The notes under the pieces are model-generated. The model searched no databases and was not told the DNA's origin. It saw only the letters and a list, made by a program, of their open reading frames with translations. A stretch of DNA of 9,846 nucleotides from Clostridia bacterium (lineage in GTDB: Bacteria; Bacillota_E; RBS10-35; JAJYVN01). Made by a program: the position numbers and the translations under genes. The DNA lies in contig DAHWHT010000190.1 of the NCBI GenBank assembly GCA_027335515.1, positions 1 to 9,846 of the forward strand. Direction: 5' to 3'. Positions 181-9,846 of the stretch are shown here, in pieces (the stretch's first letter is position 1; every line of letters begins with the position of its first letter).

Positions 181-542
181 GCCGCGGATCCGGGTCCGGA
201 CTTGCGACCGTTGATGGAGGCGGTTGGTCGTGCGTGTTCGACGGAAGGTCCTGTTTGCCCTGGGTCCTGTTCCTGGTGGCCGCTATCGGTTTGCCGGACG
301 TGCCGGCGTTTGCGATCTGGCGGCGCCCCGGACGGCAATCCTTGTCGGCGTTGACGCTTTGGTGCCACAGCCTCCAGGCGCACTTGCTGATCGCCGTGTT
401 CCACCTGGCCGCGCGGCGGTGCTCGGTGGCCAGCACCCTGGACGACTTGGCATTGCTGGTCTTTGTCGCCGGCTTGGTGCTGATCGTGCTGGCCGTGTTT
501 GCCGGCCGTCGCGGCCGGGGCACCGATGCCGCGGCTTCCTGA
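177..542 (+). CDS. Small integral membrane protein, unknown function
   Basis: I do not recognise this 121-residue protein. The chosen ATG at 177 overlaps the stop of the upstream gene (ATGA), a usual sign of translational coupling. A GTG at 234 behind a GGAGG at 216-220 is an alternative start, but its spacing is long. Hydrophobic segments lie at about residues 29-50 (PWVLFLVAAIGLPDVPAFAI), 65-80 (around LLIAVFHLAA) and 88-110 (LALLVFVAGLVLIVLAVFAG), so two or three membrane helices are likely, with a short Arg/Gly-rich C-terminal tail. Third codon positions are strongly G/C in this frame. Other frames are also open here because of the base composition, but they give Arg/Pro/Gly-rich sequence without membrane segments. 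The gene ends just before a 450-base block with no credible gene. Confidence 0.6.
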   Translation: MSRGSGSGLATVDGGGWSCVFDGRSCLPWVLFLVAAIGLPDVPAFAIWRRPGRQSLSALTLWCHSLQAHLLIAVFHLAARRCSVASTLDDLALLVFVAGLVLIVLAVFAGRRGRGTDAAAS

Positions 543-993
543 GCCGGGGACGGGCGGGTGGGGCCAGGGCAGAGGACACGCCGGGGCGCCCTCGGGGACA
601 CAGCCCCCGTCGCGCCCCGGACCCCCACCCGCCCCGTCTTCCGGGTCGGGACCCCCGCCCCGGACCCCACCCGGGTTCGGAGGCGCGGCCCTCCGCTGCA
701 CTGCGGCCCGCTTGGGAGCATTGGCGGCGGCCTTGGGCTCCCGAGTCTACCCGCCGTCGTCCGCTGCGCGGTCTTGCGGTCCTGGTGCACGGGTGCCCCG
801 GCTTCGGCCGGGGGCCTCGCGCGTCTCGCCGACGCAGCCAACCCTGCGCCCTACGGGCTGCCCCAGGGTTGGGCGGCGGCGGTCGCCCGACTGCGCCCAT
901 GCACCGACCCGCCCGGCGGGCCGGGCCTTTGGCCCGTCCTCGGGGAGCCCGTCAAGGCCACCTCCAAACAAATGGCCTTGGTGGGTGGAGTGG
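543..993 (+). other. GC-rich noncoding block rich in hairpins; possible structured RNA
   Basis: No convincing gene is seen in this roughly 450-base gap; open frames here give only Pro/Arg/Gly-rich low-complexity sequence in several frames at once. The stretch is packed with potential hairpins. The largest pairs 549-563 with 623-638 (15 pairs, one bulged C at 635) and encloses an 8-bp stem (581-588 with 613-620) and an apical 5-bp stem (593-597 with 605-609). Further stems are 641-646/669-674, 678-683/690-695, 711-719/737-745 (one wobble), 796-802/807-813 closed by a TTCG tetraloop, 838-846/864-872 with an inner 848-851/855-858, and 922-927/931-936. At such a GC content many short stems arise by chance; only the nested outer stem looks clearly beyond that. 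It may be a noncoding RNA or a long 5' leader of the RadC-like gene. I match it to no known RNA family. Confidence 0.35.
953..980 (+). repeat. Inverted repeat just upstream of the RadC-like gene
   Basis: CAAGGCCA (953-960) and TGGCCTTG (973-980) form a perfect 8-bp inverted repeat around a 12-base spacer that is A-rich compared with its surroundings (CCTCCAAACAAA). It ends four bases before the ribosome binding site GGTGGAG (984-990) of the RadC-like gene. It could be a repressor operator or a leader hairpin governing access to that site. No clear -35/-10 pair is visible beside it, so its role is uncertain. Confidence 0.35.
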
Positions 994-999
994 ATGGCG

Positions 1000-1530
1000 A
1001 TGGCGGATGCGGTGGCCCGGTCCCTGTGGGGAGAGTCGGCGCGGCCCGCCCCGGCGGTCGGCGCCGACCCTCGGTGGGTGCGGGTCGAGATGGTGCGCGA
1101 GGCGCGGGTGGGCGCGTACCGCACCTGGTCGCTGTCCGAGCCGTGCGACGCCGCGCTGCTGCTGGAGCCATTGCTGCGGCGGGAAGCGCGGGAGGTCTTC
1201 CTTGCGGCCTACCTGGACACGAAGCACCGGATCAACGCGGTGCAGAGGGTGGGCCTGGGTGCCATCGACCACGTGCCGGTCGAGCCGCGCGAGGTGTTCA
1301 CGGCGGCGCTGCTGACCAACGCGGCGGCGGTGATCGTGGCGCACAACCATCCGTCCGGTGATCCCGAGCCCTCCCACGCCGACTGTGCGGTGACCCGGCG
1401 CCTGGTGCTGGCGGGGAATCTGCTGGGGGTCGCCGTGTTGGACCACCTGGTGATCGGCGACGGCTGCTGGACTAGCCTGCGCAGTGCGCGGCCGGACCTG
1501 TTCGAGCCCGAGGCGCCGCGACCGGTGTGA
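1000..1530 (+). CDS. RadC-like JAB/JAMM-domain protein, short form
   Basis: The 176-residue product carries the RadC-type JAB/JAMM metalloprotease-like domain, a zinc-site fold of uncertain activity in this family. The complete metal motif is visible: HNHPSGDPEPSHAD, that is H115-x-H117-x7-S125-x2-D128, with upstream E98 in the PREVF motif as the likely catalytic glutamate and the usual GVAVLDHLVIGD strand after it. Full RadC proteins are about 220 residues and have an N-terminal helix-hairpin-helix part; this one has only about 40 different residues in front of the core. Short RadC-like proteins are common on mobile elements and prophages, and E. coli RadC is no longer thought to be a DNA repair factor. 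ATG 1000 is chosen because GGTGGAG at 984-990 lies nine bases upstream; ATG 994 is the alternative. The upstream frame stays open but looks noncoding. Confidence 0.92.
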   Translation: MADAVARSLWGESARPAPAVGADPRWVRVEMVREARVGAYRTWSLSEPCDAALLLEPLLRREAREVFLAAYLDTKHRINAVQRVGLGAIDHVPVEPREVFTAALLTNAAAVIVAHNHPSGDPEPSHADCAVTRRLVLAGNLLGVAVLDHLVIGDGCWTSLRSARPDLFEPEAPRPV

Positions 1531-1537
1531 CGCGGCG

Positions 1538-1563
1538 GGGCGGGGGCCAACGGGCCTCCGCCC
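1538..1563 (+). other. 11-bp GC-rich hairpin between two genes
   Basis: GGGCGGGGGCC (1538-1548) pairs with GGCCTCCGCCC (1553-1563) across an AACG loop, with one G-T wobble. It starts eight bases after the RadC-like stop and ends eleven bases before the ribosome binding site of the next gene. No T-run follows, so it is not a classical intrinsic terminator. An mRNA-stabilising or partially attenuating hairpin is possible, as is a by-product of GC richness. Confidence 0.4.
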
Positions 1564-1587
1564 ACGGCGACCTGGAGGTGGAAACGG

Positions 1588-2085
1588 ATGGGACCCATGC
1601 GGGTGTATCTGACGGGGTCCGACGGGGACGCGCAGGCTGCGGTGGCCGACTGGCTGCGACGGCGGCACGGGTTTGCGCGGGTCGCGCTCTCCGGTGGTCC
1701 GCTTGACGCGCAGCGCATGCGCGGCGGTGACTCGGTGCGCGCGGCGGCGCTGGCCCTGGAGCACGGCGATCGGCAGGCGTCCCTCGTGATCGACGGTGTG
1801 CGGACTACGGCCGAGGCGGAATACCTGCGCGCCCGTGGGGTGCTCGGCGTGCGGGTGGCGGCACGGCTCTTGCGCAGCGAGCAGCCGGACGGGTTGGCCG
1901 GTGATGCGCCGGAGGTGGATGTGGCGACCGTGCCCGTCGACCTGGTGCTGCTGCCGTTCCGCGAGCCGCTGGCCCACGACCGCGACCTGCGCCTGCTGGT
2001 GGCCCGGCTCGCCGTGTTGCATGCGACACGGGCCATGGCGGTGCGGGTGCCGCAATCGACGCGGGGAGTCCGGCAGGGGAGGTGA
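1588..2085 (+). CDS. Degenerate P-loop nucleotide-kinase-like protein
   Basis: The 165-residue product resembles small nucleoside-monophosphate/dephospho-CoA kinase-like P-loop proteins, especially phage-type deoxynucleotide monophosphate kinases. An N-terminal strand MRVYLTGSDGD leads into a helix, and the later LVIDGVRTTAEAEYL (D69, R72) matches the family's DGVR-x-x-x-E pattern, followed by a GVLGVRVAARLLR strand. The Walker A loop is broken: the expected GxxGxGK(S/T) reads G10-S-D-G13-D-A-Q-A, so lysine is replaced by Gln16 and the Ser/Thr by Ala17. ATP-dependent kinase activity is therefore unlikely, and a binding or regulatory role is inferred. The start is secure: GGAGGTG at 1574-1580 lies seven bases before ATG 1588. 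The stop overlaps the next reading frame. The fold assignment is moderately sure; that the gene is real is quite sure. Confidence 0.55.
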   Translation: MGPMRVYLTGSDGDAQAAVADWLRRRHGFARVALSGGPLDAQRMRGGDSVRAAALALEHGDRQASLVIDGVRTTAEAEYLRARGVLGVRVAARLLRSEQPDGLAGDAPEVDVATVPVDLVLLPFREPLAHDRDLRLLVARLAVLHATRAMAVRVPQSTRGVRQGR

Positions 2086-2090
2086 TGGCG

Positions 2091-2720
2091 GTGCGGGACC
2101 ATACGCACGCGGTCATCGGGGCCTGTGCCTGTGTGCCGCTGGCGATCCTGCTGGGTGGGTCGGTGATGCTGCCGATCTGCGCGGCTGCGGGCGCCATCGG
2201 CGCGGTGCTGCCCGACATCGACCATCCGCACAGTGCCTGGGGCCGGTTCGTGCCCTGGCCGGCCGCCGCAGTGGAAAACCACCACACGGGCTTTGTCGCC
2301 CACGGCCGGCGGTGGTTTGGCGGCCGGACGATCTGGCACCGGGGCGAGACGCACAGCATCGGCGCGGCGGGCATTGCGGTGCTGGCCACGCTCGCACTCG
2401 GGCGGTGGCTCTCTGGCGCGACCTTCGCTTGGCTGCAGCGCCGCGGCGCGCCGCCTGTGGCGCACCTGCCATTGGTGGCCTGGGGCCTGGCGGCCGTCGC
2501 GGCGGCCGCCGTGTTGGTCGGCTACCTCAGCCACCTGGTGGCCGACCTGGCCAACCCCAGCCCGCAGATGCTGTGGTGGCCTTTCTCCCGGCGTATGGTC
2601 CATCCGCACTGGGCCCCGGCGATCCCGGAGGCGAGTATCCAGGGGCAGTGGCTGGAGCGCGGCGCAGTGGTTGCGGCGATCGCCCTGGCAATGCTCCTGT
2701 GGGGCGGTCGGCCGGTGTGA
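2091..2720 (+). CDS. YdjM-family membrane-bound metal-dependent hydrolase
   Basis: This is an integral membrane protein of about 209 residues from the YdjM/DUF457 family, described as LexA-regulated or putative metal-dependent hydrolases; the substrate is unknown. The family's metal-binding pattern is complete: H4-T-H6 near the start, LPDIDHPHS (D42, D44, H45, H47), HRGETHS (H83, H88) and GYLSHLVADLANPSP (H148, D152), followed by WWPFSRR. Between these lie hydrophobic helices, for example CVPLAILLGGSVMLPICAAA, AAGIAVLATLALG and VVAAIALAMLL near the end. GTG 2091 is preferred because GGGGAGG at 2076-2082 sits eight bases before it and the protein then begins MRDHTH, like its relatives. ATG 2085 (sharing an A with the upstream TGA) and GTG 2082 are alternatives. 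The junction indicates translational coupling to the kinase-like gene. Confidence 0.88.
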   Translation: MRDHTHAVIGACACVPLAILLGGSVMLPICAAAGAIGAVLPDIDHPHSAWGRFVPWPAAAVENHHTGFVAHGRRWFGGRTIWHRGETHSIGAAGIAVLATLALGRWLSGATFAWLQRRGAPPVAHLPLVAWGLAAVAAAAVLVGYLSHLVADLANPSPQMLWWPFSRRMVHPHWAPAIPEASIQGQWLERGAVVAAIALAMLLWGGRPV

Positions 2721-2724
2721 GGCA

Positions 2725-2755
2725 CTGCCATCTCAAGCAGCGGCCAGGGTATCAT
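2725..2755 (+). promoter_or_regulatory. Possible weak promoter before the Uma2 gene
   Basis: TATCAT at 2750-2755 matches five of six bases of the -10 consensus, and CTGCCA at 2725-2730 is a poor -35 with a long 19-base gap. A transcript starting near 2762 would have a very short leader containing the AGGGGG ribosome binding site at 2762-2767. The gene could equally be read through from upstream. The support is slight. Confidence 0.25.
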
Positions 2756-2776
2756 GTGGTCAGGGGGCGATGCGCC

Positions 2777-3343
2777 GTGGCGGTGAGCAAGCACGAGGCC
2801 GGACGCGGCAACTTTACTTACGAGGACCTGCTGTATACGCCGGACGACGGCAAGCGGTACGAGGTGCTGGAAGGGGACCTGCTCGTGAGCCCGGCGCCGA
2901 AGGTCAAGCATCAGCGGATCGTGAAGCGCTTGCAGGGTCTCTTGGTGCGGGCCGAAGACGCGGGACACGGCGAAGGCTTTTCGGCGCCGCTGGACGTGGT
3001 GCTTTCCATGCACGACGTGGTGGAGCCCGACCTGCTCTTTATCACCACGGACCGCTTGGGGATTCTGACGGCGGAGAACGTCCAGGGCGCGCCGGACCTA
3101 GTGGTGGAAGTCATCTCCGACGGCAGCCGGCACAGGGATGTGATCACCAAGCGGCACACTTACGAACGCTACGGCGTTCGCTTCTACTGGCTGGTCGATC
3201 CCGAGGAGGAGACGGTCCGGGTCTTTGAGCTCAAGGACGGCGGCTATGGTGATCCTCGTGTGCTGACGGCCGGCCAGGAGCTCGGCTGCGCGCTCTTTCC
3301 CGGTATCACCCAGGACGTGGGCAAGCTCTTCTCCGAGCCCTGA
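2777..3343 (+). CDS. Uma2-family PD-(D/E)xK nuclease-fold protein
   Basis: The 188-residue product belongs to the Uma2 family (formerly DUF820), which has a restriction-endonuclease-like fold and is often present in many copies in Cyanobacteria, Chloroflexi and other bacteria. Its biological role is not established. Family landmarks are all present: FTYEDLLYTPDDGKRYEVLE near the start, with E29; VVEPDLLFI with E83 and D85; GAPDLVVEVIS with D107 and E111; and K125 followed by YERYGVRFYWLVDPEE. These give a plausible complete nuclease core. GTG 2777 is chosen because AGGGGG (2762-2767) lies nine bases upstream and the protein then has the usual family length; GTG 2783 is a near alternative. Base composition is visibly less GC-extreme than in the genes before 2720. 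A hairpin terminator follows within 40 bases, so this gene ends its transcript. Confidence 0.92.
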   Translation: MAVSKHEAGRGNFTYEDLLYTPDDGKRYEVLEGDLLVSPAPKVKHQRIVKRLQGLLVRAEDAGHGEGFSAPLDVVLSMHDVVEPDLLFITTDRLGILTAENVQGAPDLVVEVISDGSRHRDVITKRHTYERYGVRFYWLVDPEEETVRVFELKDGGYGDPRVLTAGQELGCALFPGITQDVGKLFSEP

Positions 3344-3371: not shown

Positions 3372-3411
3372 GACACACTGGGCGGCCCACGAGGCCGTCC
3401 TTTCGCGTGTC
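3372..3411 (+). terminator. Hairpin terminator after the Uma2 gene (imperfect palindrome)
   Basis: GGGCGGCC (3380-3387) pairs with GGCCGTCC (3393-3400) around a CACGA loop with one wobble, and TTT follows at 3401-3403. An outer GACAC (3372-3376) can pair with GTGTC (3407-3411). The core and the loop are the same as in the palindrome at 5985-6025, of which this looks like a decayed copy. The position shortly after a stop and the short T-run suit an intrinsic terminator, though a weak one. Confidence 0.6.
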
Positions 3412-3493
3412 CGGGCCCGTTTCGAGAACGCGCGGCGGGGATGTGGCCCGATACCGCGCGGTGCTTCCGTACTGGCCCGGCGGCGACACGCCA

Positions 3494-3522
3494 TTGCCCA
3501 CGGGATATGGACGTGGTACCGT
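3494..3522 (+). promoter_or_regulatory. Candidate sigma-A promoter for the riboswitch leader
   Basis: TTGCCC (3494-3499) and TACCGT (3517-3522) are 17 bases apart, and TG at 3514-3515 gives an extended -10. A start near 3529 would place the aptamer about 50 bases into the transcript. Some promoter must lie between the terminator and 3581, and this is the best fit I see, but both hexamers are poor. The bases from 3412 to 3493 show nothing else that I can interpret. Confidence 0.35.
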
Positions 3523-3580
3523 TCGTGTGCTCGGGCGGCAGTGCCGCTGCGGGCACAACTGAATAGCGCACTATGCTGAT

Positions 3581-3701
3581 CGCTGAGTCGCCGCCAGCGG
3601 CGAACGGGGGACCCAAGACGGATCCGTGGGGCGAATCCTCGGAGACCTTGCCGAGGTAGGGGTATCATTCACTCCGAGCCCGTCAGCTAACCTCGTAAGC
3701 G
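3581..3701 (+). promoter_or_regulatory. Cyclic-di-AMP riboswitch aptamer (ydaO-yuaA class)
   Basis: The conserved blocks of the ydaO-yuaA leader, which binds c-di-AMP, appear in the right order: CGCTGAGT at 3581-3588, a hairpin TCGCCG/CGGCGA (3588-3603), ACGGGGGACCCA (3604-3615), GGGGCGAATCC (3628-3638), a hairpin CCTCGG/CCGAGG (3637-3656), GGTAGGGGTATC (3655-3666), then CCGAGCCCGTCAGCTAACC (3674-3692) and TCGTAAGCG (3693-3701). The closing stem pairs CGCT (3581-3584) with AGCG (3698-3701). A small ACGGATCCGT hairpin (3618-3627) caps one arm. Such switches usually lower expression of potassium and osmolyte transporters or wall-lytic enzymes when c-di-AMP is high. Here the only downstream gene before a terminator is a cation/proton antiporter, which fits potassium homeostasis. 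The identification rests on direct recognition of the consensus and is very secure. Confidence 0.96.
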
Positions 3702-3803
3702 TGGAATGTGGTGCAGGCTGCCCTCTTGATAGGGCGCATGGCGGTCTGCCGTGCGCCGATGGGCGGCGTCTCGGCGACGGCAAGCCTTTCTGGGGGTATT
3801 GCC
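3702..3803 (+). promoter_or_regulatory. Expression platform between riboswitch and antiporter start
   Basis: This 100-base stretch holds three short stems. GCCCT/AGGGC (3720-3724 with 3731-3735) overlaps GGCGCATGG/CCGTGCGCC (3733-3741 with 3749-3757), so only one of these two can form. GGCAA/TTGCC (3779-3783 with 3799-3803) holds the ribosome binding site GGGGG (3792-3796) in its loop and ends exactly at the ATG. None is followed by a T-run, so the switch may act on translation or by a non-classical terminator. The pairings are read from the sequence; the mechanism is inferred. Confidence 0.5.
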
Positions 3804-5963
3804 ATGCCGCTGACGCCGTCTGATCTTCTCCGATTCCTGCTAGAGTTCGCGTTGCTGCTGGCGTGTGCTCGCGGATTGGGCGAGGTGGCACGCCGGCTGA
3901 ACCAGCCCCAAGTCATCGGGGAACTCCTGGCCGGGGTTGTCCTGGGTCCATCCCTGGTCGGCGCACTCTTCCCAGGCCTCTTCGCGTCGGTCTTCCCCGC
4001 GCAAGGGCCGCAACCCCTGCTCTTGCAGTTGATTGCGCAGATCGGCGTGATCCTATTGCTCCTGCTCAGCGGGATTGAGGTGGATCTTCCGCTGGTGCGG
4101 CGCAAAGCGAAACCGGCCATCTTAGTAGCGCTGGGCGGCGTGCTGGTGCCGTTTCTCTGCGGCTACGGACTTGCTACGCTATTACCAGCCGCTCTGCTAG
4201 CCCACGCGCATGCACGCCCCGTTTTCGATCTCTTCGTGGCCACCGCGATGTCCATCTCCGCCATACCCGTGATCGTGAAGATCCTCCTCGATATGAACTT
4301 GATGCGTCGCGACGTGGGTCAACTGACCTTGGCGGCCGGGGTCATCAACGACGCGACCGGATGGTTTCTGCTAGCCCTAGTGGCCGGGATCGCGACCGCC
4401 CACGCCGTACCGGTGAATACACTAGCCCTGTCCATCTTTGGAACCCTGGCCTTCGCCGTGTTCTGCTTTACCGTGGGGTATCGGGTCATCCGCGCCCTCG
4501 TGCACTGGGTCGACGACCACTTCGCTGGTGAGAGTGCCACGCTCACCGTGGTCCTGTTGGTCGGACTGGGGGGCGCTGCGGTTACGCAGGCTCTGCACGT
4601 GGAGGCCTTCCTTGGGGCGTTCCTGGTCGGGGTGCAACTCTCTCGCATCCCACGGGTCAGTCGAGTGGCGCGGCGTCAACTTGAGGCGATGACGCTCGGA
4701 GTGTTTGCCCCGGTCTTCTTCGCGGCCGCCGGGCTGAAGGTGGATGTGCCCGCGCTATTGACACCGGGCCTGCTCATCGCGCTGGTGGCGGTGGTGACGG
4801 TGGCGTGTATCGCCAAGTTCGCCGGCACATACTTCGGTGCGCGATTGGCTGGACTGTCACCGTGGGTCTCGGCGGCTCTCGGCTCCGGCATGAACGCGCG
4901 AGGTGCGGTGGAGATCATCGTTGCCACCGTCGGATTGCAAATGGGTGTCCTGACCATCCCAATGTACTCGATCATTGTTGCTATGGCGGTGGCGACGTCG
5001 GTCATGGCACCGCCACTGCTGCGCTGGACCCTGCACCGGGCACCTGCCGATCCGGAGGAAGAGCAGCGGCTGCGGCGCGAGGCTCACGAGGCGCGCAGCT
5101 TCCTGCACGGTCTGCGCCGCATGCTGGTGCCGGTGCGCGACGGCCGTCATGCATTGGTCGCTGGTGAGGTGGTGGGACACCTCGCCGGCGCGCGGTCGGT
5201 CGAGGCGGTTGCCTTGCACGCTCGGCTCAGCGACGACGAAACGGACGTCCAGGCGTTGTCGCGGACCGAGATGTCCACCGGTGCCAATGTTGAGTGGAAG
5301 GAGCGATCGGTTACCACTCGCCGCAGCGGCGTGGTCGACGCCATTCTCGCGGAGGCTGGGCGTGATTACGATCTCTTGGTGCTGGGTGCTGCCGAAATCC
5401 GCCCTGGAGTCGGCGTCTTTGGACGCGTCCTCTTCGGGCAGGTAGTGGATGATGTGCTGCGGAAGACGCCCTGCACGACTTTGGTGTTCCAAGCTCCTCA
5501 GTGGCACCGTTCCGGGGGTAGCGTGCGACGCATCTTGCTTCCCACAAACGGGACCCGAGGCGACTTGCGCGTCGCCGAGTTTGCCTTGGCGCTGGCTCGT
5601 GGCATGGGGGCGGACGTGGTGGCTTTGCACGTGGTCGAAGCCTTTCCGCTGGCAGAGCCCTTTGGCGGTCGTGCCCTGGGGGATCTGCGCGCGGAAGAAG
5701 ACTACGGCTGGCATGCAACACGCGCGGTGAGTCGTCTGGGTGAGGAGGCCGGCGTCGCCGTCCGCTGTGAAGTGCGCACTCGCACGAGTAGCTTGGTCAG
5801 CAAAGAAATCACCAAGTTCGCATCCGAAGAGCACTGCGATCTGATTCTCCTGCATGCGGAGCTGCGCACTTCGACCGAAGAACTCTATTGCGGGCGGACG
5901 GTCGACCAGATCCTTCGTAATGCACGTTGTCCGATGGCGGTTCTCTTTGATCCCGCGCAGTGA
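3804..5963 (+). CDS. CPA2-type cation/proton antiporter with two UspA domains
   Basis: The 719-residue protein has an N-terminal Na+/H+-exchanger domain (residues about 5-413, roughly 12 membrane helices) and two cytosolic universal-stress-protein domains (about 433-564 and 573-719). Antiporter landmarks include QPQVIGELLAGVVLGPSL near residues 34-51, the ion-site motif GVINDATGW with N182-D183, FAPVFFAAAGLKVDV and GMNARGAVEIIVA with R366. It exchanges K+ or Na+ for protons across the cytoplasmic membrane. The Asn-Asp pair and the NARG motif resemble plant CHX and yeast Kha1 rather than the Asp-Asp of electrogenic NapA. No TrkA-N/RCK domain is present, unlike KefC or staphylococcal CpaA. The start is set by GGGGG (3792-3796) seven bases before ATG 3804; earlier in-frame starts fall in the riboswitch region. 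It is a single-gene unit between two hairpin terminators, under c-di-AMP control. Base composition is less GC-rich than the flanks. Confidence 0.93.
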   Translation: MPLTPSDLLRFLLEFALLLACARGLGEVARRLNQPQVIGELLAGVVLGPSLVGALFPGLFASVFPAQGPQPLLLQLIAQIGVILLLLLSGIEVDLPLVRRKAKPAILVALGGVLVPFLCGYGLATLLPAALLAHAHARPVFDLFVATAMSISAIPVIVKILLDMNLMRRDVGQLTLAAGVINDATGWFLLALVAGIATAHAVPVNTLALSIFGTLAFAVFCFTVGYRVIRALVHWVDDHFAGESATLTVVLLVGLGGAAVTQALHVEAFLGAFLVGVQLSRIPRVSRVARRQLEAMTLGVFAPVFFAAAGLKVDVPALLTPGLLIALVAVVTVACIAKFAGTYFGARLAGLSPWVSAALGSGMNARGAVEIIVATVGLQMGVLTIPMYSIIVAMAVATSVMAPPLLRWTLHRAPADPEEEQRLRREAHEARSFLHGLRRMLVPVRDGRHALVAGEVVGHLAGARSVEAVALHARLSDDETDVQALSRTEMSTGANVEWKERSVTTRRSGVVDAILAEAGRDYDLLVLGAAEIRPGVGVFGRVLFGQVVDDVLRKTPCTTLVFQAPQWHRSGGSVRRILLPTNGTRGDLRVAEFALALARGMGADVVALHVVEAFPLAEPFGGRALGDLRAEEDYGWHATRAVSRLGEEAGVAVRCEVRTRTSSLVSKEITKFASEEHCDLILLHAELRTSTEELYCGRTVDQILRNARCPMAVLFDPAQ

Positions 5964-5984: not shown

Positions 5985-6025
5985 ACACGCAAAGGGGCGG
6001 CCCACGAGGCCGCCCCTTTGCGTGT
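5985..6025 (+). terminator. 18-bp palindromic terminator, probably bidirectional
   Basis: ACACGCAAAGGGGCGGCC (5985-6002) pairs perfectly with GGCCGCCCCTTTGCGTGT (6008-6025) around a CACGA loop. It starts 21 bases after the antiporter stop. The GC core is flanked by AAA and TTT, so it could end transcripts from either side, though the T-run is only three bases. The core and the loop match the weaker palindrome at 3372-3411. The next gene's ribosome binding site begins five bases after the stem, so that gene needs some read-through or a promoter I cannot see. Confidence 0.75.
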
Positions 6026-6045
6026 TCGCAAGGAGGGACTGGGGG

Positions 6046-6450: not shown

Positions 6451-6913
6451 CGCCGTGCAGCGATGCCTGGACGCGCTTGGTGGGCGCACCGACCGGTTGA
6501 CGTTGGTGCGGGCCGCGGTCGACCAGGCGCTATGGGACCCGGGCGAGATCGACTTGGCGCAGCGTTACGCGGTGGCGCATGTGGCTGTGGAATGCCACCG
6601 CCTGGTCCTGGGGTCCGACGCCGGCGGCCTGCCGTATGCCGGGGTCATGTCGGGCCCGGCGCGCGTTGTGTACCTCCGTCGCGATCTCTGGCGGGCGGCC
6701 GACTACCGGGCGCGGTTACGGGCTGTGGAGGAGCAACGAGTCGCGCTGGATGTGGAGGCGGCGGCCTTGCGCGACGAGTGCCGGCGACGGTGGGGCGCCA
6801 AGTGTCCGCTGGCCCCGCGGGGATGCGACCAGTGCGGCGTCGAGGACTCTGGGATCGCGGTGGGGCGGGTGGCGGTCGATTCCGGTGAGGGGGTGCGCGG
6901 GGATGGCGGATGA
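6443..6913 (+). CDS. Four-cysteine helical protein of unknown function
   Basis: The 156-residue product has no signal peptide or membrane segment and matches no family I know. The N-terminal two thirds look helical. A charged stretch (about residues 80-118, including RARLRAVEEQRVALDVEAAA) may form a coiled coil and runs into a cysteine cluster, C113-x7-C121-x6-C128-x2-C131, which looks like a zinc site. The last 20 residues are Gly/Val-rich and probably disordered. ATG 6443 is set by GGAGG (6431-6435) seven bases upstream and overlaps the previous gene by eight bases; its own end overlaps the next start by eleven. Such tight packing between a membrane protein and a secreted giant argues for a shared function, perhaps a cytosolic partner or a regulator. 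The gene is real with good confidence; its role is unknown. Confidence 0.75.
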   Translation: MRDAVQRCLDALGGRTDRLTLVRAAVDQALWDPGEIDLAQRYAVAHVAVECHRLVLGSDAGGLPYAGVMSGPARVVYLRRDLWRAADYRARLRAVEEQRVALDVEAAALRDECRRRWGAKCPLAPRGCDQCGVEDSGIAVGRVAVDSGEGVRGDGG

Positions 6914-9846
6914 CCGTATGGCCTGGTGGGGACGGGCGGTGATCGGCGTGGGTGCGGCGGTCGCTGTGCTCGCGGTGGCCGCGCCGGCCGCTTTGGCCAA
7001 CAGCACGACGTACACGACGGGCGGATGGCAACAGCAGTCTGGGATGACGGAGGTCCCCGGAGGCACCTGCAACGTGGGCACGGTCTCTGGGTCGCCGTCC
7101 CCGGTGGTGGGTGGCGGTCAAAGCAACGGGTCGTCCTACATCCAATGGGCATTCAGCTACCTCAACACCAACGTCACGCTGCCCGGCGGCGCGACATTGA
7201 TCGGCGGCACCGTATCGGGCACGGTAGCTGAAGCCGCCGTGAGCGGCCAGCCTGTGGCGTCAGCGGGTAGCTACTACGTCGGGGTGTTTGACGGCTACGA
7301 CAACGCTCAACCGCAGGTGCAAGGCGCTCAGTGCTTAGCCCCATACGCCTACGCCACCGCCAGCGGCACACTGGGCTTCCCGGGCAACCAGGGCAATGTC
7401 ACTTTCAGTTTCGACGGGTACAACCTAATCCAGGGCTTTCTCGGCAACGGGGCCAACGGGGCGAATGCCGAGGCCCTGTCTGTTGGCAATGGTTCCATCT
7501 GGTACGCGCCGACCTCTGCCGTCACGCTGGTGGAGCAGTATGCGTACACCCCGAGCGGGATCACACCCTCCCACGTGGCCGCGGGCAACGGCACAGAGAC
7601 CTACATCACCTGGAACGCCAATGGCAACAACTCGGGCACCGTCTACGACCTACAACGGGAGACCATAGATTCCTCGGGCGGTGTGTCTTCTGGGTGGACG
7701 ACGATCTACCAGGGCACGGCGACCAACTTCACCACGACGGATCAGGCGTGTGGTGTCGGCTACGTGTATCGGGTCAACGTGCCCGGCCCGGACGCCGCTA
7801 CACCCTGGGACACGTCGGCGCAGTGGGACGGGTATCCCTGCAGCGTGTCCTTCAACAGCGCCACCACGACGGGCATCACCGTATCGTGGCCCGAGGTGAC
7901 GCCGCAGACGCTGCCTGAGGTCGCGTGGTGCGAGGAGAACACGCCAGCCGGTGGGGTGTCCTGCTCGCAGCAACGCGTCGACCTCGGCGCGGGGACGACG
8001 AGTGTGACCCTGACCGGCCTGACGCCCAACGCGGAGTATGCCGTGTGGGCATGCTCGCAGACGAACCCCTGGGGCTGCCCGGAACTCAATGCGTGGACGT
8101 ACGCGGCGCAACCCACCTTGAGCCCAAACAACCACGTGTCAGGGTTGTCCTACGATCAGCAGCCGTTCACCTGGACTACGGCGGGCAACGCGCCCGGCAC
8201 CGTGTATGTCTTTCAACAGGGGACTTTCGCTCCGAGCGGAGCCTGGCAAGGAGGCACGGTCATCTATAGCGGCACCGCGACTTCGGCCACAGCTAACCAG
8301 AGCGCTGGCGCCAGTTATGGCTACAACGTGTGGGCAAACAACGCCGGTTATGGCGATGGGACCCCGGCGTCCAACGGCGTTCCGGTCCAGGTGGCGCCGT
8401 CGCCGAGCATGACGGCCACCGGGTCCACCACCGCGACTGTCGACTGGCCAGTGGTGGCCGGCGAATCGCAGACCGGGGTGCAGTGTGGCCCCTGGGGCGG
8501 CAACCTTAGTTACCAGGGCACCAGCACGTCGACGAGCTGGCAGGTGACCGGCCTGACTCCGAACACAGGCTACTACTGCGCGATCTACGCCGTGGCGAGC
8601 AACCAGGGAATCCAGTGGTGGCAGCAGTCTGCGGAGACGACGACGGATGCCGCCCAGCCGACGGGGGCCACCCTGGGAAGCCTCACACAGACCTCCGTCA
8701 CCATGTCATGGTCGGCGGTTGGCAACCCGGGGGGCACGCAGTACAACGCGGTCTTGTACAAGTGTGCTGACACCGCAAACTCCGTGGCAGGCTCGGGGTG
8801 GACCACGGCGACCTCCTGGCAAGCGGCCGGCCTGCAGCCAGGGACGTGCTACACCGGATGGGTGCAGGCGCGTAACAGTGCGGGCGCCGGGACGGGCGTG
8901 GACTGGACGCAGCAGGCCCCGACAGTGCCTGCTCAGCCGAGCGGCTTCACCGGGGCGGACGGCGGTCTGGGTTGGTCGCCGAGCTCCGGCCGTGGCTATG
9001 CCACCCTGTCGTGGAACCCGGTGGCAGGGGCGACGGGGTATGACGTGCTGGTGTGGGACGGGACGACCTACGAGTCGTTTGACGTCGGCACGGCGACCTC
9101 GTGGAGCAGCGAGCAGGCGGCCATCTACCCGCCGGATGCCTCGCTGTATCCGAACGTGGCGGAGGCGAGCCAGAGCCCGCCCGTGTTCTCGCACTCGGCG
9201 GGCGGGCTGAACCTGCGCGACCTGCCCCTGGATCTGTACTGCACCACCGGAACCTACTACTGCACCCAGAATCCCCCGCAGAACTACTGGTTCGCCGTGG
9301 ACGCCTACAACGCTAGCGGCAACAGCGACGCCTTCCAGGGCGGATGTGCCGGGGATTGCTACCAGCCCACGCTGCCGCTGCAGACCGACCCCGGCGCCCC
9401 GACCGTCACCGATTGGAGCGTGAACGGCGGGGCGGCCTACACGTACTCGTCCACGGTCCCGTACACCCTGACCGCTGCCGAGGGGACATCCGGCATCGCG
9501 ACCCACGCGCTGTCTAACAACGGTTCCACATGGACCCAAATCGGCAACAACGACGGCTGCGTGGTTGGCCAGGTAGCGCCCTGTTCCACCATACTCAACT
9601 CTGCGGGCACTTGGGCCCTGACGCCTGGGCCCGGCGCCAAGACGGTCTATGCGCGGGTCGAGAGCGCCGCAGGTGTCTGGTCGCCGCCGACCACGACGAC
9701 GGTTTACGTCAACACCGATCAGACTGTGCCCACGGTCGACGTGACCCTCAATGGCGGTGCGGCCGCCTCCGCCAGCACCTCGGTCACCGTGGCCGTCGAC
9801 GTGAGTGACCCCGCCGGTACGGCCGCTGGTGCCACGTGGCAGGCCC
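6903..9846 (+). CDS. Large secreted fibronectin-type-III protein, 3' end beyond window
   Basis: One frame stays open from ATG 6903 to the window edge (981 codons, no stop), so the protein is longer than seen. Residues 1-32 form a Sec signal peptide: charged start, hydrophobic core around VIGVGAAVAVLAVAAP, cleavage after ALA32. The mature part is rich in Gly, Ser, Thr, Asn and Trp. An N-terminal region (33 to about 220) of unknown fold is followed by about six fibronectin-type-III-like modules, near 220-310, 314-403, 405-500, 501-583, 586-678 and 679-815. The clearest carry VTLTGLTPNAEYAVWA, WQVTGLTPNTGYYCAIYA and WQAAGLQPGTCY. Ig-like repeats start near 829 and 940. I count 18 cysteines, mostly inside modules. 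It is probably an adhesin, matrix or surface-layer protein; no catalytic domain is visible. AGGGGG (6888-6893) lies nine bases before ATG 6903; ATG 6918 is an alternative. Confidence 0.85.
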   Translation, partial: MADDRMAWWGRAVIGVGAAVAVLAVAAPAALANSTTYTTGGWQQQSGMTEVPGGTCNVGTVSGSPSPVVGGGQSNGSSYIQWAFSYLNTNVTLPGGATLIGGTVSGTVAEAAVSGQPVASAGSYYVGVFDGYDNAQPQVQGAQCLAPYAYATASGTLGFPGNQGNVTFSFDGYNLIQGFLGNGANGANAEALSVGNGSIWYAPTSAVTLVEQYAYTPSGITPSHVAAGNGTETYITWNANGNNSGTVYDLQRETIDSSGGVSSGWTTIYQGTATNFTTTDQACGVGYVYRVNVPGPDAATPWDTSAQWDGYPCSVSFNSATTTGITVSWPEVTPQTLPEVAWCEENTPAGGVSCSQQRVDLGAGTTSVTLTGLTPNAEYAVWACSQTNPWGCPELNAWTYAAQPTLSPNNHVSGLSYDQQPFTWTTAGNAPGTVYVFQQGTFAPSGAWQGGTVIYSGTATSATANQSAGASYGYNVWANNAGYGDGTPASNGVPVQVAPSPSMTATGSTTATVDWPVVAGESQTGVQCGPWGGNLSYQGTSTSTSWQVTGLTPNTGYYCAIYAVASNQGIQWWQQSAETTTDAAQPTGATLGSLTQTSVTMSWSAVGNPGGTQYNAVLYKCADTANSVAGSGWTTATSWQAAGLQPGTCYTGWVQARNSAGAGTGVDWTQQAPTVPAQPSGFTGADGGLGWSPSSGRGYATLSWNPVAGATGYDVLVWDGTTYESFDVGTATSWSSEQAAIYPPDASLYPNVAEASQSPPVFSHSAGGLNLRDLPLDLYCTTGTYYCTQNPPQNYWFAVDAYNASGNSDAFQGGCAGDCYQPTLPLQTDPGAPTVTDWSVNGGAAYTYSSTVPYTLTAAEGTSGIATHALSNNGSTWTQIGNNDGCVVGQVAPCSTILNSAGTWALTPGPGAKTVYARVESAAGVWSPPTTTTVYVNTDQTVPTVDVTLNGGAAASASTSVTVAVDVSDPAGTAAGATWQA

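Follow-up and report, generated by a model that had tools for sequence, protein, structure and literature searches.

The window analyzed here, a 9,846-nucleotide stretch of a Clostridia bacterium contig (DAHWHT010000190.1), carries what comparative sequence evidence indicates to be a true c-di-AMP riboswitch, a member of a known mechanism family that is conserved in related genomes and is located upstream of an unusual target, the gene for a CPA2-type cation/proton antiporter with two Usp domains. This arrangement would be best explained, with a probability of roughly 0.5, by an OFF switch that acts at translation in a one-gene unit. The following features of the window are relevant to this interpretation:

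3494..3522, forward strand: promoter-like site (TTGCCC, 17 nt, TG extension, TACCGT), from our own scoring, with a score reached by 1.5% of shuffles
3571..3715, forward strand: c-di-AMP riboswitch aptamer (RF00379, ydaO/yuaA), from the Rfam covariance model, also found upstream of six homologues
3733..3757, forward strand: strong expression-platform hairpin of 10 pairs without a T run after it, from the sequence and the aptamer-forced fold
3779..3803, forward strand: predicted hairpin around the Shine-Dalgarno sequence GGGGG (3792-3796), abutting the start codon, from folding
3804..5963, forward strand: CPA2-type cation/proton antiporter of 719 aa with Na_H_Exchanger and two Usp domains, from the reading frame, domain matches, NapA alignment, and fold
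5985..6025, forward strand: perfect 18-pair hairpin, probable end of the unit, with arms at 5985-6002 and 6008-6025 that are 100% complementary

The c-di-AMP aptamer proposed in the earlier note was borne out by a covariance-model search, in which RF00379 matched positions 3571-3715 with a score of 84 bits (gathering score, 38; E value, 6.4e-19; Rfam scan of the whole window). The match is full length, covering model positions 1 to 134 of 134, and is the sole Rfam match at the gathering score within the window. The earlier note placed the start at 3581, where helix P1 begins; within the RF00379 model, ten unconserved bases precede this position. The aptamer lies on the same strand as the antiporter gene, and the model ends 88 nt 5′ of the start codon.

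The stop codon of the antiporter frame ends at 5963. An in-frame GTG is present upstream at 3708, but ATG 3804 was chosen as the start since this is where the aligned relatives start. Of the six homologues with a riboswitch described below, five have GTG and one has TTG at the position matching this ATG (start codons assigned by hand). The earlier description of the product as a CPA2-type antiporter that has two Usp domains and lacks RCK has held up: PF00999 covers residues 24-410 with 180.7 bits against a cut-off of 26.2, two Usp stretches are present besides, and the domain scan reports no RCK or TrkA domain in the 719 residues. The CPA2 model TIGR00932 scores 147 bits, under its cut-off of 238.3, and the KefC equivalog scores 31.8 bits against a cut-off of 752. 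Among solved sequences, the best match is NapA, which also ranks first in a fold comparison with the predicted structure (TM-score of 0.84 by target length), followed by KefC and, lower, by tandem Usp proteins; the structure model, built from 14 sequences with a mean pLDDT of 78.4 and a pTM of 0.65, was used for the fold only. Residues D183 and K338 align with the NapA aspartate in TM5 and lysine in TM10, so that the protein combines the Na_H_Exchanger domain, both of these CPA2 residues, and a NapA-like fold.

The pairing of riboswitch and antiporter recurs in other genomes. A contig scan of genomes gave ten loci, seven of which encode full-length antiporter homologues with 55-72% identity. 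Whole-genome searches at E ≤ 1e-60 covered the orders of two relatives and found homologues in 6 of 13 and 7 of 59 genomes, respectively, and a search at E ≤ 1e-100 found them in 7 of the 154 genomes of the first relative's class. Together, this gave 15 different loci (L057-L071) from 14 genomes. RF00379 is found upstream of six of the 15 (L057, L058, L059, L060, L062, and L069), each in a different genome, whose proteins are 57-73% identical to that of the window; with the window included, 7 of 16 genes bear the riboswitch. L069 comes from Ferroacidibacillus organovorans, and L057 and L058 from Bacillota bacterium assemblies. As F. organovorans (genome G005) is missing from the matches of the class search centered on genome G001, the pairing occurs in at least two classes. 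A diadenylate cyclase domain is encoded in all six riboswitch-bearing genomes and in 13 of the 14 genomes tested. RF00379 is absent upstream of the other nine fetched loci, eight of which were judged at the gathering score; upstream of L071 and six of these eight (the rescan excluded L066 and L067), nothing appeared even at E ≤ 0.1. Mapping the riboswitch onto a 22-row protein tree requires four changes, a count equally low in 23 of 500 shuffles. Judged from these sequences, the pairing can be considered solidly conserved, which backs the view that the riboswitch serves the antiporter gene.

The seven antiporter aptamers also group together in an aptamer tree. The sample of 100 consisted of these seven and 93 others, of which 31, including one below the cut-off, were further places in seven genomes and 62 came from the class. 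In the midpoint-rooted FastTree phylogeny, the common ancestor of the seven antiporter aptamers holds exactly 7 of the 100 tips, with a support of 0.997, and each of 200 random sets of seven tips spans at least 54 tips. With the unconserved tails removed, the smallest group containing all seven has eight tips (support of 99.5/93), the additional one being L055, an aptamer located in genome G006 5′ of a gene for an ABC transporter ATPase with CBS domains. The pattern would be best explained either by a riboswitch-antiporter unit that was ancestral and later lost in some lineages or by transfer of the unit between lineages.

The antiporter link is rare among the c-di-AMP riboswitches of one relative's class. 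The seven genomes first reached have 34 listed RF00379 places, 33 of them above the cut-off, and the antiporter follows 3 of the 34. In the class of the first relative, 133 of 154 genomes have an RF00379 match above the cut-off. From the class places listed, 110 were sampled (30 loci plus 80 fetched, with high scores favored) together with 1.5-1.8 kb of downstream sequence, and an orientation check confirmed the aptamer core in 109 of them (not in L177). None of these 110 riboswitches is followed by an antiporter-family gene at E ≤ 0.01 with a family profile that detects relatives at 25-37% identity. One mechanically chosen frame per place, available at 109 places (L078 gave none), was assigned to a downstream family; among the 25 of 41 families listed, the most common were the 3D domain (29), peptidoglycan binding (21), and glycosyl transferase (17), followed by D-Ala-D-Ala ligase (15), octopine dehydrogenase (10), and amino acid permease (6). 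Titles and abstract openings of the papers returned by literature searches mention no c-di-AMP riboswitch before a CPA2/Usp antiporter, although the tables of a 2013 survey (PMC3830699) may contain one.

The leaders of the seven riboswitch-bearing genes share several traits. A promoter-like site is found in all seven, with the −10 element ending 19-52 nt 5′ of the aptamer and a score reached by 0-3% of shuffles in each case; a stricter consensus scan recovered a promoter in only one leader (L069) and none at that of the window. The distances from the aptamer model end to the start codon are 88, 84, 78, 116, 136, 111, and 94 nt. The stretch of the 3733-3757 hairpin shows little conservation across the seven leaders. 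In the Shine-Dalgarno hairpin, these leaders show weak covariation, with one compensatory pair out of eight. Local folding of positions −36 to +3 gave z scores against shuffles of −1.4, −0.3, −2.4, −1.8, −1.7, +0.5, and −2.5 in the leaders, compared to −0.7 to +1.3 in eight of the nine riboswitch-less homologues (L061 was left out); the one-sided Mann-Whitney p value is 0.009, or 0.007 with three near-identical sequences merged, for homologues that are not independent. Occlusion of the Shine-Dalgarno sequence itself is not sharply different between leaders and controls, given that its unpaired probabilities in the local folds are 0.31-0.60 in the seven leaders versus 0.38-0.66 in the eight controls. 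The start codon is GTG or TTG in six of the seven riboswitch genes and ATG in the eight riboswitch-less genes and L061. On the leader strand, no terminator-like site was found in five of the seven leaders (those of the window, L057, L058, L060, and L062); in L069, a terminator-like hairpin starts on the final base of the aptamer model, and L059 has a weaker one. These folding results are suggestive of translational control through the Shine-Dalgarno hairpin. At the other end of the unit, the strong hairpin reported in the earlier note 3′ of the gene is real, with its 18-nt arms at 5985-6025, but it has no T run behind it and is absent from the list of the terminator scan, so it can be proposed only as the probable transcript end.

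In the proposed mechanism, the gene's own promoter would drive a transcript in which the c-di-AMP riboswitch leader precedes a single coding region for a NapA-like CPA2 antiporter with a tandem Usp tail. The switch would act on translation via the hairpin around the Shine-Dalgarno sequence and would be of the usual OFF type, so that the antiporter would be made at low c-di-AMP levels, as in osmotic upshift or at low K+, and shut off at high levels. Folding, assessed in four ways, does not decide between ON and OFF because the measures disagree. When the aptamer is forced, the probability of the Shine-Dalgarno hairpin rises from 0.28 to 0.92 in the window and from 0.50 to 0.98 in L058; in the other leaders, it changes by less than 0.1 or falls (from 0.33 to 0.09 in L062). 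The mean unpaired probability of the Shine-Dalgarno region goes up in five of the seven leaders and is unchanged in two (from 0.24 to 0.51 in the window), since the free fold hides this region by other pairs; the rise speaks against an OFF switch. The energy for opening the Shine-Dalgarno region differs by −6.0 to +2.1 kcal/mol with versus without the aptamer, with no common sign in the seven leaders, and the difference in L059 depends on the chosen 3′ end (−6.0 to +0.3 kcal/mol). The 3′ strand of P1 pairs with the platform more strongly than in shuffles in three of the seven leaders (z scores of −2.7, −2.4, and −2.0), but not in the window (z score of +1.8).

The direction of the switch is approached here through characterized riboswitches, as described in the excerpts of the cited papers that were available. 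The c-di-AMP riboswitches of kimA and nlpC are OFF switches, and c-di-AMP riboswitches are referred to as off-switches (PMC9960051); OFF control was also described for kdp (PMC6488665), rpfA (PMC10117811), and ablA (PMC9337991). An aptamer that lies apart from its terminator is read as an OFF switch (PMC9337991), and the Shine-Dalgarno hairpin of the window, which does not overlap the aptamer, has such a layout. These five OFF switches and the separate position of the hairpin make translational OFF control the best guess, and OFF control at whatever level can be considered probable. The earlier note, which reasoned that the riboswitch must be of the ON type unless the antiporter imports cations or moves Na+, offered an incomplete choice: it did not consider that a standard OFF switch may control an antiporter needed at low c-di-AMP. 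An efflux target for a c-di-AMP riboswitch has a precedent in Synechocystis, where one is found on a putative chloride efflux gene (PMC10117731).

An ON switch, in which the bound aptamer would expose the Shine-Dalgarno sequence and a K+/H+ exporter would be made at high K+ and c-di-AMP as an RNA analogue of CpaA control, appears rather unlikely. It has the physiological logic of a K+ exporter on its side, as well as the acceleration of CpaA-mediated K+ export by c-di-AMP (PMC6488665), the increased unpaired probability in five of the seven leaders, an opening cost that is lowered by 1.2-6.0 kcal/mol in three of the seven (shortest 3′ end, aptamer forced), and Ser and Ala at TM4 positions 2 and 3, as in K+-selective CPA2 proteins (PMC6181914). 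However, no conserved pairing was found in the seven leaders by which the aptamer would exclude the hairpin, and the hairpin of the window becomes likelier instead; the excerpts contain no ON example among c-di-AMP riboswitches, which PMC9960051 refers to as off-switches; and motif position 4 is a nonpolar Ile, unlike the Thr of Kef proteins. The fuller version, an ON-type switch that would make a cation exporter at high c-di-AMP as the RNA counterpart of CpaA and KhtTU activation, in a unit of single origin across classes, is unlikely as well.

Transcriptional OFF control, in which the ligand-bound aptamer would promote termination within the leader and the hairpin at the Shine-Dalgarno sequence would be incidental, would fit the terminator-like hairpin of F. 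organovorans and the weaker one of L059, as well as the action by termination of the kimA, kdp, rpfA, and ablA switches (PMC9960051, PMC6488665, PMC10117811, and PMC9337991); it is nevertheless doubtful, as the window and four other leaders have no such site on the leader strand. That the aptamer is a relic or chance neighbor with no control over the antiporter could be argued from the nine of 15 homologue loci that lack it. This seems very improbable given the complete aptamers above the cut-off in seven leaders, their common origin, the promoter-like sites before all seven, and the diadenylate cyclases in all six riboswitch-bearing genomes searched.

If the preferred OFF reading is correct, the antiporter would be part of the cell's response to low c-di-AMP levels, for instance after osmotic upshift, and probably would not be used for dumping K+; an ON switch would mean that c-di-AMP riboswitches can activate export. 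The K+ targets of c-di-AMP riboswitches in the literature excerpts are importers that are shut off at high c-di-AMP, and a conserved riboswitch on an antiporter thus offers a clean test case. Either direction would bear on the cation moved by the NapA-like/Usp antiporter family, which sequence alone does not tell.

The idea that control by c-di-AMP had moved here from the protein to the RNA was not upheld. PF00999 and PF00582 are found together in all 120 relatives listed (the best 120 of 1,194) and an RCK domain in none of them; this domain composition is shared by homologue L063, which lacks the riboswitch, and by three listed relatives that were rescanned. The absence of RCK is thus a family trait, not a trade for the riboswitch. 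A loose form of the KdpD-type c-di-AMP motif of Usp domains (S-x-S-x20-F-T-A-x-Y) was found in none of 120 proteins, that of the window included; its source names further residues beyond the motif tested (PMC8214093). The UspFG ATP motif is present in 2 of the 120 relatives and not in the window's antiporter. Since NhaS5, a CPA2 antiporter of Synechocystis, is reported to be a putative receptor for c-di-AMP (PMC10117731), direct binding of c-di-AMP by the antiporter protein is still conceivable.

Like CpaA and KhtTU, the system described here ties a cation/proton antiporter to c-di-AMP. Exporters controlled via RCK_C, such as CpaA and KhtTU, carry this domain in the protein or in a partner subunit. 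In both of those systems c-di-AMP acts on the protein, in KhtTU via the RCK_C domain of KhtT (PMC10117811), whereas the link in the window is an RNA and the protein has no RCK. The riboswitch resembles other RF00379 members in its full-length match above the cut-off and its apparent position in the 5′ leader of an ion-handling gene; it differs from them in its target, a CPA2 antiporter with a Usp tail, as the transporter targets elsewhere, in the excerpts available, are K+ importers (kimA and kdp), amino acid or osmolyte transporters, and one putative chloride efflux gene. The nlpC riboswitch of Corynebacterium glutamicum likewise lacks a canonical terminator and has been proposed to exert control at translation (PMC9960051), but it controls a cell wall peptidase rather than a transporter. 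NapA of Thermus thermophilus, the best solved sequence and fold match for the membrane domain, has a DD motif and is electrogenic (PMC6181914), in contrast to the ND motif of the window's antiporter, whose Usp tail extends beyond the length of NapA.

Alignment with NapA, with the columns placed by hand, gave the CPA motif of the antiporter as I-S-A-I in TM4, N-D in TM5, and K in TM10, so that positions 6, 7, and 8 are Asn, Asp, and Lys. Electrogenic CPA2 members have an acidic residue at position 6 (DD plus Lys), where this protein has Asn; electroneutral exchange is predicted when that residue is not acidic (PMC6181914), and the antiporter would accordingly be expected to exchange one cation, Na+ or K+, per proton. 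The signs of selectivity are mixed, with Ser and Ala at positions 2 and 3 as in K+-selective CPA2 proteins and the nonpolar Ile at position 4 as in Na+-selective ones. In place of the L-S-S-T in TM4, QD in TM5, and RCK domain of Kef-type proteins, it has I-S-A-I, ND, and no RCK. Among the best 120 of 1,194 relatives, position 6 is Asp in 73, Asn in 25, Thr in 9, Ser in 5, and Gly in 1, and was left unread by the search pattern in 7. The antiporter can also be likened, by description, to the Synechocystis NhaS5/KhaB clade of CPA2 antiporters; the aligned Nostoc relatives (42% identity) carry DD where the window's antiporter carries ND. Full-length relatives of the antiporter, with 37-41% identity, are also encoded on haloarchaeal plasmids.

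Aspartate, Asn, Thr, Ser, and Gly all occur at position 6 of the CPA motif, the TM5 residue at which a non-acidic side chain predicts electroneutral exchange (PMC6181914), among the 120 listed relatives of the antiporter (the best of 1194), all of which share the PF00999 plus PF00582 architecture. Given this variability within one architecture, the Na_H_Exchanger-Usp family may include electrogenic and electroneutral members side by side.

In the core-only tree of c-di-AMP aptamers, from which the unconserved tails had been removed, the antiporter aptamers are joined by one (L055, from genome G006) whose downstream gene encodes a CBS-domain-containing ATPase of an ABC transporter. The antiporter gene of the same genome has no riboswitch, and the antiporter-type leader may have moved there to another gene. 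In four other loci (L011 to L014, four genomes), a high-scoring c-di-AMP riboswitch lies upstream of a gene for a small protein (161 to 167 residues); a Pfam scan of one such protein (L045, the same gene as in L014) returned no match.

The riboswitch-antiporter unit has the following surroundings in the window:

499-3343, RadC-like, YdjM-like membrane, and Uma2-type genes, upstream of the unit
3380-3413, hairpin repeat, copy 1
5995-6028, hairpin repeat, copy 2
6579-9845, long frame, still open at the window end

The upstream genes have no obvious tie to ion handling. The two hairpin copies, which bracket the unit, share a 17-nt core (2 matches in the window versus 0.04 expected), and no exact match was found in the 181 loci compared; the repeat is possibly a genome-specific terminator-like palindrome. 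The long frame encodes fibronectin type III domains and, judged by eye, a signal-peptide-like stretch, and its product is likely a secreted or surface protein.
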